From assembly GCA_027487075.1 (NCBI GenBank), contig JAIYEG010000012.1:1-42077 (forward strand): a stretch of DNA of 42,077 nucleotides, given 5' to 3'. The notes beneath the pieces are model-generated. The model was not told where the DNA came from, searched no databases, and saw nothing but the letters and a program-made list of their open reading frames with translations. The position numbers and the translations under genes were made by a program. This document shows, piece by piece, positions 5,600 through 22,409 of the stretch (the stretch's first letter is position 1; every line of letters begins with the position of its first letter). The DNA is from a bacterium. GTDB lineage: Bacteria > Patescibacteriota > Minisyncoccia > Phycocordibacterales > CALRBL01.

Positions 5600-5718
5600 A
5601 AAAAGATAGATAATAGTGCTTTTGAGAGAGCCTTGCGAGGCTCGACGGAGCGAGCACGAGGAATGTTCTAGCAAGAAAATATCCGTGGTCTCTCGGAAGC
5701 ACTATTATCTATCTTTTT
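5600..5718. repeat. 119-bp long imperfect hairpin, MITE-like
   Basis: The outer arms 5600-5621 and 5697-5718 are perfectly complementary over 22 bp (AAAAAGATAGATAATAGTGC is the start of the left arm). Pairing continues through two G-U pairs and GAGAGA/TCTCTC to about 30 bp. The 57-nt centre contains smaller stems (CCT-TGCG-AGG and CTCG/CGAG). The right arm covers the last three codons and stop of the minus-strand mreB. On the minus strand the hairpin is followed by TTTTTGTTT, so it can also end that transcript. Either an exceptionally long terminator or a small non-autonomous palindromic element. Confidence 0.75.
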
Positions 5719-6722
5719 GAGATCACACTCTTCTTATACGTATCCAAATGCTCGAGCGCCACACCAGTTCCCTTCACCACACAATAGAGCGCATCTTCTG
5801 CGAGCGTTGCTTTCACTCCCGTGCGACGAAGCACAAGCTCGGTGAAATTGCGGAGTTGCGATGAGCCGCCCGTCATGATGATACCGTTATCAATAATATC
5901 TGATGCAAGTTCGGGAGGAGTTTCTTGAAGCACGTCTTTCATGGCGCGGATCATTTCGCGCAATTCTTTGGTGATGGCTTTCACCACTTCATTGGTACGG
6001 ATTTCGACTGAGCGAGGAAGGCCAGTCATGAGGTCACGTCCTTTCACCATAAGCGAGAGCTCATCGATCACCGGAATCGCTGAACCAATTTTGATTTTGA
6101 TTTCTTCGGCGGTCTTGTCACCAATTGAGAGATTGTATGTTTTCTTTACGTGGTCGACAATCGCGGCATCAACGCGATTCCCTGCACACTTCACCGAAGT
6201 AGATGCCACGATACCTCCGAGCGAAATCACCGCCACGTCAGTGGTACCTCCACCGATGTCGACGATCATATGCCCCACCGCTTCATTGATCGCAATACCC
6301 GCACCGATTGCGGCAAGAATGGGCTCCTTCACCACGTAGGCATTTTTTGCTCCCGCACGCACTGCTGCTTCGATCACGGCACGTCGCTCGGTCGAGCTCA
6401 CGCCCGCTGGCACCGACACCATCACCTCAGGCCGTGAGATATTCCACTTACCAAGCGCCTTTTGCATGTAGTAGCGAAGCATAGCTTCCGTCACACGATA
6501 ATCAGCAATCACCCCATCCTTCATGGGGCGGTATGCCACAATACTATCGGGAGTTCGTCCCACCATTTCTTTGGCTTCAAGTCCTACCGCGAGGATGCGA
6601 TTATCTTCTTTTGACACCGCTACCACCGACGGCTCATTGAGCACAATTCCCTTTCCAGGCAAAAACACGAGTGTGTTGGCTGTGCCGAGGTCGATACCGA
6701 GTTTCTTATTGAAAATTCCCAT
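5709..6722 (-). CDS. mreB: Rod shape-determining protein MreB (second copy)
   Basis: Complete 337-residue actin-like protein beginning MGIFNKKLGIDLGTANTLVF. It has the nucleotide-binding motifs GIDLGTANT, MIVDIGGGTTDVAVISLGG and GIIMTGGSSQLRNF in the expected places, and its length is normal for MreB. It is clearly paralogous to the MreB at 1-897 (shared KGI.LNEPSVVA, RDLATGLPR/RDLMTGLPR). No mreC or mreD is nearby, unlike the usual mreBCD cluster. Transcription starts from a -10 box (TATAGT, minus 6731-6736) that overlaps the -10 of the divergent priA. The 3' end is buried in the right arm of the long hairpin at 5600-5718. Confidence 0.96.
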   Translation of the reverse strand: MGIFNKKLGIDLGTANTLVFLPGKGIVLNEPSVVAVSKEDNRILAVGLEAKEMVGRTPDSIVAYRPMKDGVIADYRVTEAMLRYYMQKALGKWNISRPEVMVSVPAGVSSTERRAVIEAAVRAGAKNAYVVKEPILAAIGAGIAINEAVGHMIVDIGGGTTDVAVISLGGIVASTSVKCAGNRVDAAIVDHVKKTYNLSIGDKTAEEIKIKIGSAIPVIDELSLMVKGRDLMTGLPRSVEIRTNEVVKAITKELREMIRAMKDVLQETPPELASDIIDNGIIMTGGSSQLRNFTELVLRRTGVKATLAEDALYCVVKGTGVALEHLDTYKKSVISKR

Positions 6723-6730
6723 AATGTGAG

Positions 6731-6738
6731 ACTATACT
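6731..6738. promoter_or_regulatory. Overlapping divergent -10 boxes of mreB and priA
   Basis: On the plus strand TATACT (6733-6738) ends 5 nt before the priA ATG (6744). On the minus strand TATAGT (6736-6731) ends 8 nt before the mreB ATG (6722). The two hexamers share four base pairs, and the start codons are 21 bp apart, so the two promoters cannot be opened at the same time. Both mRNAs would be leaderless. Confidence 0.55.
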
Positions 6739-6743
6739 AGCAC

Positions 6744-8477
6744 ATGAACGTTATCACCGTCATTCCAATGAGTCGAGGCATCGGCAAAGAGACGTTGAGC
6801 TATTACACAGCGTCTCCGGTTGAGCTTGGCTCTATCGTGTCGGTACCCCTTCGCTCGAAGATGGTCGAAGCTCTCGTGGTGTCAATCGCTGATGCACGAA
6901 GCATGAAAGCTGAACTTCGAAGCGCCACGTTTTCTCTCAAAAAAATTGATAAGCTTGTGTCACGGCCATATCTCTCTCCCGCATTTATGAAAACCGTCGA
7001 AGACACGGCGCGCTATCATGCTGCCACTATTGGCGCCACCTTGCATGTCCTGCTTCCAAAAGTTCTCAAGAAAGCTTCAACAACATATAAAAGGAAAGAA
7101 CATGTGTCAGAGATAGCACCACGCATCGCTCGCTATCTTTCACTTATTGCTGAAGAGCCGAACACCGTGATTGTGGCACCGACAAAAGAGCGCCAAGAAT
7201 CACTATCAAAAAAGGTGCCTGTCCCCATTATGCTTCCAAGCGCCGTAAGCACTATTCCACTCGACACCTCACTCATCATCATCGATGAAACAGAAAGCAC
7301 AGCATATAAAAGCATTGGTCGACCTTTTATTGATTTTCGTTTTGTGATCGAGCGATATGCGACACACATAGGAGCGCGTATCGTAAAAGAAACATCGATC
7401 CTCGATCCACACATCAAAAAAATTATCGACCATCACACCAAGAACGACACCACTCCCTATAGCTCTATCGGCGCCCACCTCGAACAAGAACTTCTCTCAC
7501 TCAAAGAGCGCCCCAAACATCTTTTCATACTCGGGGCACGCAAAGGTCATTCGGGCACCGTACTGTGCCAAGACTGCGGACATATCTTCAACTGCACCCG
7601 GTGTTCGGCACCACTTACCCTTCATGCCCGCAGCCACACCGAGCGACTGAATTCCCTCCTCTGTCATCATTGTGGCTTCAAGAGTGAAGCGGCGACTTCG
7701 TGTCCAACGTGTGGAGGATGGCGTCTCAAAGCATATGGGCTTGGCACACAAAAAATCGAGGAAGATGTGGCCATGCTTGTGCAGAAAAAACATATTCGCA
7801 CCTATATACAGCGCATCGACAGCACTCTCAAGCTCACGCCAAAGCGTATTCGTGAATTCATCACCACTCACTACAGCAAACCGTCGGCCATCCTCATTGG
7901 TACCGAACTACTCATTCCCTACCTCGTCGACGCATCATGGGATGGTCATCACAACGACGCATCATACATCGCTTCACTCGACACCCTCCTCGCACTTCCC
8001 GACTTCTCAATCACTGACCGTATCTTCCATCTGTTCACCCAGCTCGACGCCACCACAAAAAAGAAAGTTGTGCTCCAGACACGTTCGGCTTCATATCCAC
8101 TTTTTGATGCATGGCAGAGAAGCACGAGTGATAAAGACAGCGCCCCTTCGGCACTCAGTGAGTTTTGGAAACAAGAACACGAGCTTCGGAAAGCGCTTTC
8201 ATATTCACCGTTTGGTACCCTCATCAAAATCACGGTGAGAGGGTCAAAACCTTCGGTCGGCGCACAGATGAAAAAGATCGAGGCACTTCTTGCACCATGG
8301 AAACCGCTCGTATTCCCTGCATTCATTAAAACCGTACGTAACCAACATCTTCTTCATGCACTCATCACACTTCCTCATGATCGTGAATCAGGCTGGGTTA
8401 ATGAAGAACTCCTCACCCTTCTTCGCTCACTCCCCCCATCAGTCATCATTGATATCAACCCCAAAAGTATGTTATAG
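6744..8477 (+). CDS. priA: PriA-like primosomal protein lacking ATPase motifs
   Basis: PriA restarts stalled replication forks by remodelling them and loading the replicative helicase. This 577-residue version (E. coli 732) keeps the N-terminal DNA-binding domain (about 1-105). It also keeps all eight cysteines of the paired zinc sites (CQDCGH, NCTRC, CHHCG, CPTCGG; about 275-330), the GLGTQKIEEDV motif and the C-terminal PPF-like segment (YSPFGTLIKI). The helicase lobe is shrunken. No GxTGSGKT Walker A is present, DEEH is replaced by IIDETES, and the arginine-finger motif QVAGRAGR is replaced by QLDATTKKK. It is therefore probably ATPase-dead. First gene of priA-def-fmt. Confidence 0.88.
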   Translation: MNVITVIPMSRGIGKETLSYYTASPVELGSIVSVPLRSKMVEALVVSIADARSMKAELRSATFSLKKIDKLVSRPYLSPAFMKTVEDTARYHAATIGATLHVLLPKVLKKASTTYKRKEHVSEIAPRIARYLSLIAEEPNTVIVAPTKERQESLSKKVPVPIMLPSAVSTIPLDTSLIIIDETESTAYKSIGRPFIDFRFVIERYATHIGARIVKETSILDPHIKKIIDHHTKNDTTPYSSIGAHLEQELLSLKERPKHLFILGARKGHSGTVLCQDCGHIFNCTRCSAPLTLHARSHTERLNSLLCHHCGFKSEAATSCPTCGGWRLKAYGLGTQKIEEDVAMLVQKKHIRTYIQRIDSTLKLTPKRIREFITTHYSKPSAILIGTELLIPYLVDASWDGHHNDASYIASLDTLLALPDFSITDRIFHLFTQLDATTKKKVVLQTRSASYPLFDAWQRSTSDKDSAPSALSEFWKQEHELRKALSYSPFGTLIKITVRGSKPSVGAQMKKIEALLAPWKPLVFPAFIKTVRNQHLLHALITLPHDRESGWVNEELLTLLRSLPPSVIIDINPKSML

Positions 8478-8490
8478 AATAAGGACATAT

Positions 8491-9012
8491 ATGATTCACA
8501 TTCTCCAGCAAGCAGAGCCTGTCCTTCGCGAACTCGCGCAAGATGTTCCTGTCACAGACATTACCTCGCCTCGTATCAAAAAAATCTTGACCGACATGAA
8601 GACCGCACTCGACTCACAGTCTGACGGCGTAGCGATTGCCGCACCGCAGATCGGTGTACCACTCCGCATCTTCCTCGTATCTGGTGCCGTCCTCGACATG
8701 ATCAAGTACGAAAAGAATGAGCTCGATCGCACCGTGCCTGACATGGTCTTCATCAATCCCACCATCGACAAACTTTCAAAGACCACCGAATGGATGGATG
8801 AAGGATGTCTTTCAGTGCGCTATCTTTACGGCAAAGTAAAGCGTGCTACCAAAGCCACCGTCACGGCCTATGATGAACATGGCAAAAAGTTTACTCGCGG
8901 AGGATCAGGTATCCTTGCGCAGATTTTCCAACACGAGACCGATCACCTTGACGGCATCCTCTTTATCGACAAAGCAAAAGAGGTTGAAGAATTAAAACCA
9001 CAACAACAATAA
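8491..9012 (+). CDS. def: Peptide deformylase
   Basis: Metal-dependent hydrolase that removes the formyl group from the N-terminal methionine of new proteins. The three family motifs are present: GVAIAAPQIG (46-55), EGCLSV (104-109, metal-binding C106) and HETDH (148-152, two metal-binding His and the catalytic Glu). The 173-residue length is typical. The start ATG 8491 has a clear Shine-Dalgarno, AAGGA, at 8481-8485. In-frame codons upstream lie inside priA and would give an unconserved 67-residue leader. It lies 13 nt after priA and 2 nt before fmt, its natural partner in the formyl-methionine cycle. Confidence 0.96.
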   Translation: MIHILQQAEPVLRELAQDVPVTDITSPRIKKILTDMKTALDSQSDGVAIAAPQIGVPLRIFLVSGAVLDMIKYEKNELDRTVPDMVFINPTIDKLSKTTEWMDEGCLSVRYLYGKVKRATKATVTAYDEHGKKFTRGGSGILAQIFQHETDHLDGILFIDKAKEVEELKPQQQ

Positions 9013-9014
9013 CA

Positions 9015-9872
9015 ATGATACCTTTCGTATTTTTTGGCACATCACGTTTCTCGGTCATCCTTCTCGACCGTTTGCATGTGCTTGGTATCACCCCTTCACT
9101 CATCGTAACCGCACCCGATCGTCCTGTGGGGCGAAAGCAACTCATCACACCACCACCCATCAAAGTGTGGGCGGATGAACACCACATTCCCACCATCCAA
9201 CCCGAAAGCCTCAAAGAAGCTTCAATAGATCTCGCACACCTTAAAACACTCAAGCAGTACAAACTTTTTATTGTGGCTTCGTACGGAAAAATCATTCCAC
9301 GCTATATCTTAGATATCCCTGAACATGGTGCGCTCAATATTCACCCTTCACTCCTTCCGAAGTATCGTGGTGCATCGCCCATTCAGTATCAGATCAAACA
9401 GAACGAACAACACATCGGCACCAGCATCATGCTCATGGATGAAGAGATGGATCATGGTCCGCTTCTTGTACAAAATGAAGTAGCCGAGGCACGAAGTGGC
9501 GACCTCCCACTTCCCTACGACACCACCGAAGATATTCTCGCGCGGGAAAGCGCAGACCTTCTTGCTTCTGTTATTGAACCATGGCTTCAAGGGACACTCA
9601 CCCCCACACCACAAGACGACAGCGCTGCTACCTACACTCACATCATCACCAAAGCAGATGGCGAAATCTCTCTCACTAATAATCCCCTCACTACCTATCT
9701 TACCTATCTTGCCTTTTATACGTGGCCCAAAGTATTTTTCTTCCACGAGAAAGACGGCGTGAAGCAACGTGTCATCATCACCGATGCCTCATACGAAAAT
9801 AACACGTTTGTGATCAAACGCGTTATTCCCGAGGGTAAGACCGAACGTCCCTACGATTCGTTTATTCAATAG
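9015..9872 (+). CDS. fmt: Methionyl-tRNA formyltransferase
   Basis: Transfers a formyl group from 10-formyl-tetrahydrofolate to initiator Met-tRNA. The N-terminal domain has FFGTSRFSVILLDRL at its start, the catalytic region NIHPSLLPKYRGASPIQYQI (about 106-125) and the MDEEMDHGPLL segment. The C-terminal OB-fold is short, and the protein (285 residues) lacks the last ~25 residues of typical enzymes. The start ATG 9015 is 2 nt after the def stop, so translation is coupled. The last 11 bases overlap the end of a tiny minus-strand gene. Formylated initiation is therefore expected to operate, which matters for leaderless mRNAs. Confidence 0.95.
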   Translation: MIPFVFFGTSRFSVILLDRLHVLGITPSLIVTAPDRPVGRKQLITPPPIKVWADEHHIPTIQPESLKEASIDLAHLKTLKQYKLFIVASYGKIIPRYILDIPEHGALNIHPSLLPKYRGASPIQYQIKQNEQHIGTSIMLMDEEMDHGPLLVQNEVAEARSGDLPLPYDTTEDILARESADLLASVIEPWLQGTLTPTPQDDSAATYTHIITKADGEISLTNNPLTTYLTYLAFYTWPKVFFFHEKDGVKQRVIITDASYENNTFVIKRVIPEGKTERPYDSFIQ

Positions 9873-20575: not shown

Positions 20576-21493
20576 ATGGATCAATCGAACTATACTACAC
20601 ACCGTTGGCTTTATCCGTCAATCACCATCTTTGCTATCTTGCTCCTTGCGAGCGGAGGAGGATATGGTTGGTATCAATTACATCTGACCAAAGTTGCACT
20701 AGAAAAAGCTGACCATCAAATAACCGAGACCCGATCACGTACAAGTATTCTTGAACAACAAAATGCAGATATGAGCATCACTCTTATGACAGCTCAATCT
20801 GAAAAAGAACAACTTGAAGCCGACCTTAAAGCACAGAAACGGCAGAATGCTATTCTTACAAATGATAAAGAAGATCTCGAAGATCAGCGTGAAATACTTC
20901 AAAAACTTACTCAGACCGACAAACAACTTCTCGCAAAATATTCGAAGGTTTATTTTCTGAATGAAAACTATGTACCAGCACAGCTTGTCACTATCGACAA
21001 AGCATATACCACTCAAGAGAAGCAACTACAATTTTTGAAGGATGCATATCCTTACCTCGAAGAACTTCTCAAAGACGCTGCAGAGGATGGTATCCCATTA
21101 CGCATCGCATCAGCATATCGTTCGTATAATGAGCAAAAGGCACTCAAATCAGCCTATAAAGCAATGTATGGTGCGGGAGCGAATACTTTTTCTGCCGATC
21201 AAGGATATTCTGAACATCAACTTGGGACAACTGTAGACTTTACCACTCCAGAACTTATTGGAGCGGTACCAGCATTCGAGAACACAACCTCGTATACGTG
21301 GCTTAAAAATAATGCTTACAAATATGGCTTTATCCTTTCGTATCCAAAGTCAAATGCATACTATATCTACGAACCATGGCATTGGCGCTTCGTAGGTGTA
21401 AAATTAGCACGCACACTTCACGAAGATAACAAAAACTTTTATGATCTTGACCAGCGTGAAATAGATAGCTATCTCATCCACCTCTTTGACTAA
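20576..21493 (+). CDS. D-alanyl-D-alanine carboxypeptidase, VanY/LAS family
   Basis: Zinc peptidase that trims peptidoglycan stem peptides outside the membrane. It has 305 residues: an N-terminal anchor (about 12-32), a long coiled coil (about 40-115) and then the LAS domain. The substrate-binding segment is RIASAYRSYNEQ. The zinc ligands are His214 and Asp221 in SEHQLGTTVDF and His269 in EPWHWRFVG, with Glu266 next to it. All catalytic residues are present, so it should be active. The coiled coil could hold the enzyme at a set distance from the membrane or pair it with a partner. It overlaps the next peptidase gene by 8 bp. Confidence 0.92.
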   Translation: MDQSNYTTHRWLYPSITIFAILLLASGGGYGWYQLHLTKVALEKADHQITETRSRTSILEQQNADMSITLMTAQSEKEQLEADLKAQKRQNAILTNDKEDLEDQREILQKLTQTDKQLLAKYSKVYFLNENYVPAQLVTIDKAYTTQEKQLQFLKDAYPYLEELLKDAAEDGIPLRIASAYRSYNEQKALKSAYKAMYGAGANTFSADQGYSEHQLGTTVDFTTPELIGAVPAFENTTSYTWLKNNAYKYGFILSYPKSNAYYIYEPWHWRFVGVKLARTLHEDNKNFYDLDQREIDSYLIHLFD

Positions 21494-22409
21494 ATTTATT
21501 ACTACTATTGCATTAATAGCCCTTATCGCCGGCACCGGATATTATTATCGTGCTACATGGAAAGAGTATTTTTTCCCTACAAAACCTTGTGAACAACCAA
21601 TCACGTACTCAATTACACAACTTGATGAACGATTCGGACTAAGTGAAGATGAAATACTCACCGTGACCAAGGAGGCTGAAGATGTGTGGGAGGCGGCATT
21701 TGGAAAAGACTTGTTTGCGCATAGCGCGACAGGCACTCTTGGCATAAATCTTATATATGATTATCGACAAGAGGCAACTGATAAACTTTCTAGTATTGGT
21801 TCTAGCATCACGAACGACAGACAACAGTACGATATGTTGAAATCACGATTACAGTCACTCAGACGTACCTATGACACCTCAAAGGCCACTTACGAAAAAG
21901 CGGCAACATTGTACGAAGCAGCTATTATCAGACACAATGAGGAAGTGGCTGAGTGGAATAGCAAAGGAGGTGCCCCCGAAGATGAGTACAATCGTCTTGA
22001 ACGTGAAAGAAAGTCACTTAATCGACAAGAGCAATCTCTTAAAGAGGATGTCGATGAGCTATACTCAATTCAAAATAGTATTACCACGACGATCAATGAT
22101 ATCAACAAGCTTGCACACAAACTCAACGTTAAGGTGGAAGATTTTAATACCGTTGGTGCTTCAACGGGAGAAGAATTCAATGAAGGTGAGTATATTCGAG
22201 ACAAACAAGGTGAGCGCATTAATGTGTATCAATTCCAAACTCGTGCCCAATTAAGAAGGCTTCTTGCACATGAACTCGGACACGCTCTCGGAATGAACCA
22301 CGTTGATGACAGCGCGGCTATCATGTATCGACTCAACTCAAGCACTAATGAAATGCTCACCGATGCAGATATTCAAGAATTAATGAGGGTGTGTAGTACA
22401 CAGAACTAG
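21486..22409 (+). CDS. Membrane-anchored matrixin-like metalloprotease
   Basis: 307 residues from TTG 21486, which overlaps the end of the VanY-like gene, so translation is probably coupled. One N-terminal membrane segment (about 5-22) is followed by a region with homology to zincin pro-domains and a coiled coil (about 100-210). The protease motif is HELGHALGMNH (His262, Glu263, His266, His272), with a following Met-turn (AIMYRL). This HExxHxxGxxH-plus-Met pattern is that of metzincins/matrixins. The substrate is unknown. Paired with the carboxypeptidase it suggests envelope remodelling or attack on host or prey surfaces. Confidence 0.88.
   Translation: MTKFITTIALIALIAGTGYYYRATWKEYFFPTKPCEQPITYSITQLDERFGLSEDEILTVTKEAEDVWEAAFGKDLFAHSATGTLGINLIYDYRQEATDKLSSIGSSITNDRQQYDMLKSRLQSLRRTYDTSKATYEKAATLYEAAIIRHNEEVAEWNSKGGAPEDEYNRLERERKSLNRQEQSLKEDVDELYSIQNSITTTINDINKLAHKLNVKVEDFNTVGASTGEEFNEGEYIRDKQGERINVYQFQTRAQLRRLLAHELGHALGMNHVDDSAAIMYRLNSSTNEMLTDADIQELMRVCSTQN

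Follow-up and report, generated by a model that had tools for sequence, protein, structure and literature searches.

The window analysed here, an entire contig of 42,077 bases (G000:C3) from a 676-kb genome in 12 contigs that is 92% complete, encodes a protein that is PriA, the factor that sets stalled replication going again, by descent, fold and context, and its sequence strongly supports the loss of ATPase and helicase activity. The original prediction treated loss of the motor as a peculiarity of this protein; instead, it extends across the order and nearly across the class, and has a published precedent elsewhere. We think it likely that the helicase core of this PriA ortholog has been turned into an ATP-independent, fork-binding scaffold (a pseudohelicase) for the reloading of DnaB.

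Results

Identity and neighbourhood of the priA gene

The gene lies in an uninterrupted, stop-free forward frame of 577 amino acids, flanked as follows:

5709..6722, minus strand: mreB, divergent neighbour; the mreB/priA pairing recurs in relatives
6744..8477, plus strand: priA, predicted motor-dead PriA (pseudohelicase), 577 aa; assigned by profile matches, alignment and model
8491..9012, plus strand: def, peptide deformylase, 13 bases past priA; start inferred from the ATG at 8491
9015..9872, plus strand: fmt, methionyl-tRNA formyltransferase, giving the order priA-def-fmt

The mreB / priA-def-fmt arrangement is common to relatives from the same order, as far as their loci extend. Elsewhere in the window, a VanY-like carboxypeptidase (20576-21493) has as its neighbour, at 21486-22409, a 307-aa protein that carries a matrixin (M10) peptidase domain.

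The presence of a priA gene at 6744-8477, as originally proposed, is borne out by the frame itself together with three concordant sets of matches. The PriA 3′-end DNA-binding domain (3′BD) was recognised above the Pfam cut-off (PF17764, residues 20-105, E 5.3e-9), so that the predicted retention of the N-terminal DNA-binding domain stands. The zinc region (PF18319) scored 23.3 bits, slightly below its 26-bit cut-off, and the PriA C-terminal domain (PF18074) gave a weak, below-cut-off match at residues 489-573. NCBIfam PriA models matched with E-values down to 1e-46, all below their curated equivalog cut-offs; TIGR00595 reached 131 bits where its equivalog cut-off is 230; this model spans the helicase core, the part of the window PriA that has decayed. 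The nearest solved chains were those of Klebsiella and Escherichia coli PriA (6.5e-19).

Loss of the motor motifs

Alignment with E. coli PriA, the motif scan and the structural model divide the protein into the following parts, all on the plus strand:

6744..7082: 3′-end DNA-binding domain, residues 1-113 (PF17764 at 20-105; E. coli PriA alignment)
7083..7478: degenerate, shortened RecA-like lobe 1, about residues 114-245 (alignment; low-confidence model stretches at 112-124 and 148-157)
7122..7124: codon of Arg127, in the Walker A lysine column (E. coli K230), which holds Arg in every one of the 78 order members
7284..7295: degenerate motif II, DETE for DEEH, residues 181-184 (alignment, motif scan)
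7524..7547: motif IV-like FILGARKG, residues 261-268, kept (alignment with E. coli PriA)
7566..7712: cysteine-rich zinc region with eight Cys, inserted in lobe 2, residues 275-323 (Pfam, motif scan); across the order these Cys vary little or not at all
7737..7751: GLGTQ, residues 332-336, a kept PriA signature (alignment, motif scan)
7890..7904: start of motif V, ILIGT, residues 383-387, kept; the following KG is lost (alignment)
8040..8063: motif VI position, QLDATTKK, residues 433-440, replacing QVAGRAGR (alignment, motif scan)
8208..8474: PriA C-terminal domain, residues 489-577 (weak PF18074, alignment, model)

The cysteines number exactly eight (275, 278, 284, 287, 307, 310, 320 and 323), in the register of E. 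coli PriA, in agreement with the original prediction, and the GTQ-like motif that it listed as retained is present as GLGTQKIEE. The motor motifs have fared otherwise. Motif I (GVTGSGKT in E. coli PriA) is replaced, with Arg127 in the Walker lysine column, and motif III (GSATP) is gone; the P-loop and the QVAGRAGR sequence are missing, as had been claimed. The claim that DEEH is absent holds in part: an intact DExH has gone and its His is lost, but the degenerate DETE remains, with the Asp and first Glu kept. Similarly, the helicase lobe is shortened, but not by the more than 100 residues first estimated, lobe 1 falling short of its E. coli counterpart by about 75-90 residues and of that in relatives from its own order by about 60. 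The other large gap relative to E. coli PriA corresponds to the winged-helix domain, the loss of which is a separate reduction, since this domain is also missing from PriAs of the Candidate Phyla Radiation (CPR) that retain an intact P-loop.

An intact P-loop in a shifted position, or a second intact priA, had been named as findings that would overturn this reading. The patterns GxxxxGK[TS], DExH and QxxGRxxR do not occur in any of the six frames of 6501-8600, and thus there is no shifted or frameshifted P-loop around the gene. Six-frame searches of the 676-kb genome revealed no second priA, although the remainder beyond its 92% completeness could hold one; the other matches to PriA models were UvrB, RecG and weak matches to helicase lobes. 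Because Walker A, motif II and motif VI, the three defining motifs tested, all fail, the window protein does not qualify as a PriA helicase.

Distribution of motor-dead PriA

The order belongs to the Nomurabacteria/Taylorbacteria-type Paceibacterota, ultrasmall bacteria of the CPR; 148 of its genomes were surveyed and 78 PriA sequences read. When the window protein alone was used as the query on relatives' contigs, no relative was found, whereas an alignment from the order recovered 80 named loci, from Ca. Nomurabacteria, Taylorbacteria, Zambryskibacteria, Yonathbacteria and others. PriA models matched in 127 of the 148 genomes, none with a P-loop PriA, and every profile match began at position 6 or later (positions 1-3 in intact proteins). 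The P-loop (GKT) is absent from all 78 sequences read, so its loss from the window PriA is not a chance event, and the proposed survey of CPR PriAs for loss of motif I shows it lost in every sequence read from this order. In the same 78 proteins, the Walker lysine column is invariably Arg, 74 have Glu at the third position of DEEH, and the former motif I follows the consensus Q-x4-[ED]-R-x3-Y-K. Other motor-dead lineages have Arg in the same column in 21 of 38 cases. At the threshold of the survey, about 20 of the 148 genomes gave no match to PriA, and since many of these are more than 95% complete, PriA appears dispensable in some lineages.

In a phylum-wide sample of 287 genomes, counted by hand, PriA was intact in about 89, dead or degenerate in about 54 and not detected in the rest; most of the dead or degenerate cases were confirmed by reading, and the remainder gave only matches at the level of other helicases. 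A quick tree of motor state required at least three changes, two of them forced by starred (well-supported) branches, which speaks against a single origin of motor loss; as the deep branches are weak, the number of independent losses is uncertain.

Several individual cases were recorded during the survey. The only class-level PriA read that has a P-loop (GPAAAGKT) is that of genome G282 (L123 / L306), which also has motif VI; it groups with intact proteins from another part of the phylum, for which horizontal transfer and retention are both possible. Two motor-dead PriAs, L009 (G240) and L127 (G387), still have a motif II reading DEEH or DEES, which looks like an intermediate step of decay. 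G387 carries two priA copies (L127 and L128) that are 88% identical; this genome has 3% contamination, and the copies probably represent two strains. In one family of the phylum (f28; G008, G048, G066, G080 and others), PriA models matched frames of ~320 aa, some with TAA or TAG in frame, which may be decaying genes or assembly errors.

A PriA cut down to the 3′-binding domain and a tail of ~100 aa was found in two genomes of the same order, G231 and G384 (L286:1111-1953, minus strand; L287:1468-2235, plus strand). These proteins total 256-281 aa, the tail has no family assignment, and the L286 copy is directly upstream of def. The idea that the tail is a partner domain was dropped, because a search of 60 relatives recovered the tail from just one (G231).

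Selection and predicted structure

The dead motor is kept by purifying selection across the order, in all domains. Among order pairs with computable synonymous distances, several of the larger of which are near saturation, dN/dS for the dead lobe 1 was about 0.05-0.12, close to that of the other domains, and several residues within this lobe are invariant across the order.

A comparison of the predicted structure with E. coli PriA had been suggested, and the models point to a retained PriA fold. With 61 relatives from the order as additional input, AlphaFold2 modelled the window protein at a pLDDT of 84.8 and a pTM of 0.84, the uncertain stretches being in lobe 1; for a typical member of the order the values were 89.1 and 0.86, and a RecA-like lobe 1 was still predicted. 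All top Foldseek matches of the window model were PriA structures, the best being fork-bound E. coli PriA (PDB 8fak; E 2.6e-35, TM 0.74), which was also the best match of the typical order member (E 8.3e-40, TM 0.76).

Discussion

The reading of the window PriA as ATPase- and helicase-dead, strongly supported at the level of sequence, rests on the Arg found in the Walker lysine column of all 78 order members, on the loss of motif VI and of the motif V KG, and on E. coli PriA, in which, according to earlier work as summarised in PMC4504706, the K-to-R change by itself abolishes both ATPase and helicase activity. That E. coli variant, priA K230R, carries the identical change at the Walker lysine, but as an engineered single substitution rather than as the natural state of an entire order. 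Relative to E. coli and Klebsiella PriA (PDB 8fak, 6dgd and 4nl4; TIGR00595), the window protein shares the fold, 3′BD, two lobes, eight-Cys region and C-terminal domain, but lacks the ATP site, the arginine finger and the winged-helix domain, and the residues of the aromatic-rich loop are not conserved.

The closest parallel is PriA of Deinococcus radiodurans, which has neither ATPase nor helicase activity, binds forks and DnaB, and has been termed a pseudohelicase (PMC4504706). Like the window protein, it is a PriA ortholog that has kept its DNA-binding parts, with Arg for the Walker A Lys and a poor Walker B; however, its motifs I and II were reported to fit poorly (PMC4504706), whereas the window PriA has lost motifs I, Ia, III, VI and part of V, has no winged-helix domain and has a shortened lobe 1. 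The inactivity of the D. radiodurans protein and its binding of forks and DnaB were demonstrated biochemically, while the window PriA is known from its sequence and a model. With its PriA ancestry and lost catalytic residues, the window protein fits, as judged from the alignment, a pseudohelicase of the D. radiodurans type, and by analogy it most likely works in the same way, though in a more reduced form and throughout an order. Actinobacterial PriA may be a further precedent.

Two lines of evidence favour the structural role proposed in the original prediction, namely the purifying selection that acts on the dead lobe and the example of D. radiodurans; the accompanying role as a loader is our inference. 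Since selection has kept the dead motor, PriA is probably a passive docking platform. It would recognise abandoned forks via its 3′-binding domain and dead core, would be unable to unwind the lagging arm, and would recruit DnaB, for which this genome has a gene, to DNA that is already single-stranded there. Recruitment would be direct or via an unrecognised partner, because neither DnaC/DnaI nor DciA was found: DciA had no match over cut-off in the genome that holds the window, and among 31 relatives a single weak one, and the over-cut-off matches of the DnaC/IstB type were all the size of DnaA, except for one IstB-like protein in another genome. The loader search covered DciA and DnaC/DnaI (IstB-type); among these no known helicase loader was recognised, and a divergent one may exist. 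In Mycobacterium tuberculosis, PriA is listed as essential although DnaC, DnaT, PriB and PriC are absent (PMC5694481). Any fork remodelling that is needed could fall to other motors, RecG for example, which this genome encodes along with UvrB, or the cell may do without it.

Part of the evidence could be read as simple decay, with PriA function lost in the lineage and the window copy an eroding, non-functional remnant. The protein is only 30-33% identical to same-genus PriA, as against 80% for MreB, and has two lobe-1 deletions beyond those of order members; several relatives have no PriA, or the 3′BD alone. Because it is thus more eroded than its relatives, the window PriA might be on its way out in its own species. 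We nevertheless consider decay unlikely, given a 577-aa frame that is still open, the eight Cys and 13 order-invariant residues of A1 that it has kept, the purifying selection on every domain in order relatives, a fold modelled with confidence outside lobe 1, and the preserved priA-def-fmt order.

The conservation within the former ATP site could also be taken to mean that its invariant Arg and conserved Glu bind another or ATP-like ligand without hydrolysis, toggling fork binding, and the motif-I-like consensus would suit such a switch. The phosphate-loop glycines and Thr are lost, however, the window PriA itself lacks the Gln and, with DETE, the motif II Glu register, and an Arg-Glu salt bridge would explain the conservation equally well, making a repurposed site improbable. 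More improbable still is an active ATPase helicase whose nucleotide site has diverged so far that it goes unrecognised: the RecA-like lobes predicted for the typical order member would allow it, but the Walker Lys and Thr, the phosphate-loop glycines, motif III, the motif VI arginines and the motif V KG have been lost jointly, and the K-to-R change alone silences the ATPase of E. coli PriA (PMC4504706). The ATP-independent scaffold therefore remains our preferred reading of the window PriA.

For Paceibacteria-type CPR as a whole, we tentatively suggest a history that we hold to be almost evenly balanced: the ATPase may have been lost at an early stage and its site rebuilt as a fixed structural element, with the invariant Arg where the Walker Lys had been and the conserved Glu of motif II, leaving a conserved ATP-independent restart scaffold that operates without DnaC, DnaI or DciA and that some lineages then trimmed to the 3′BD or lost.

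A PriA pseudohelicase was already known from D. radiodurans; what is new here is a more reduced form that spans a whole order. Open-licence full text, in which most subscription journals are not covered, yielded no literature on the PriA of CPR bacteria. The helicase motifs of PriA are conserved in most bacteria, yet the activity is dispensable in laboratory E. coli (PMC4504706), and the reason for keeping it has been an open question. An order without the PriA motor, in which the rest of the protein is nevertheless under selection, amounts to a natural experiment that sets fork recognition and DnaB recruitment apart from unwinding, and it bears on how replication may be restarted in minimal CPR genomes that have no recognisable helicase loader.
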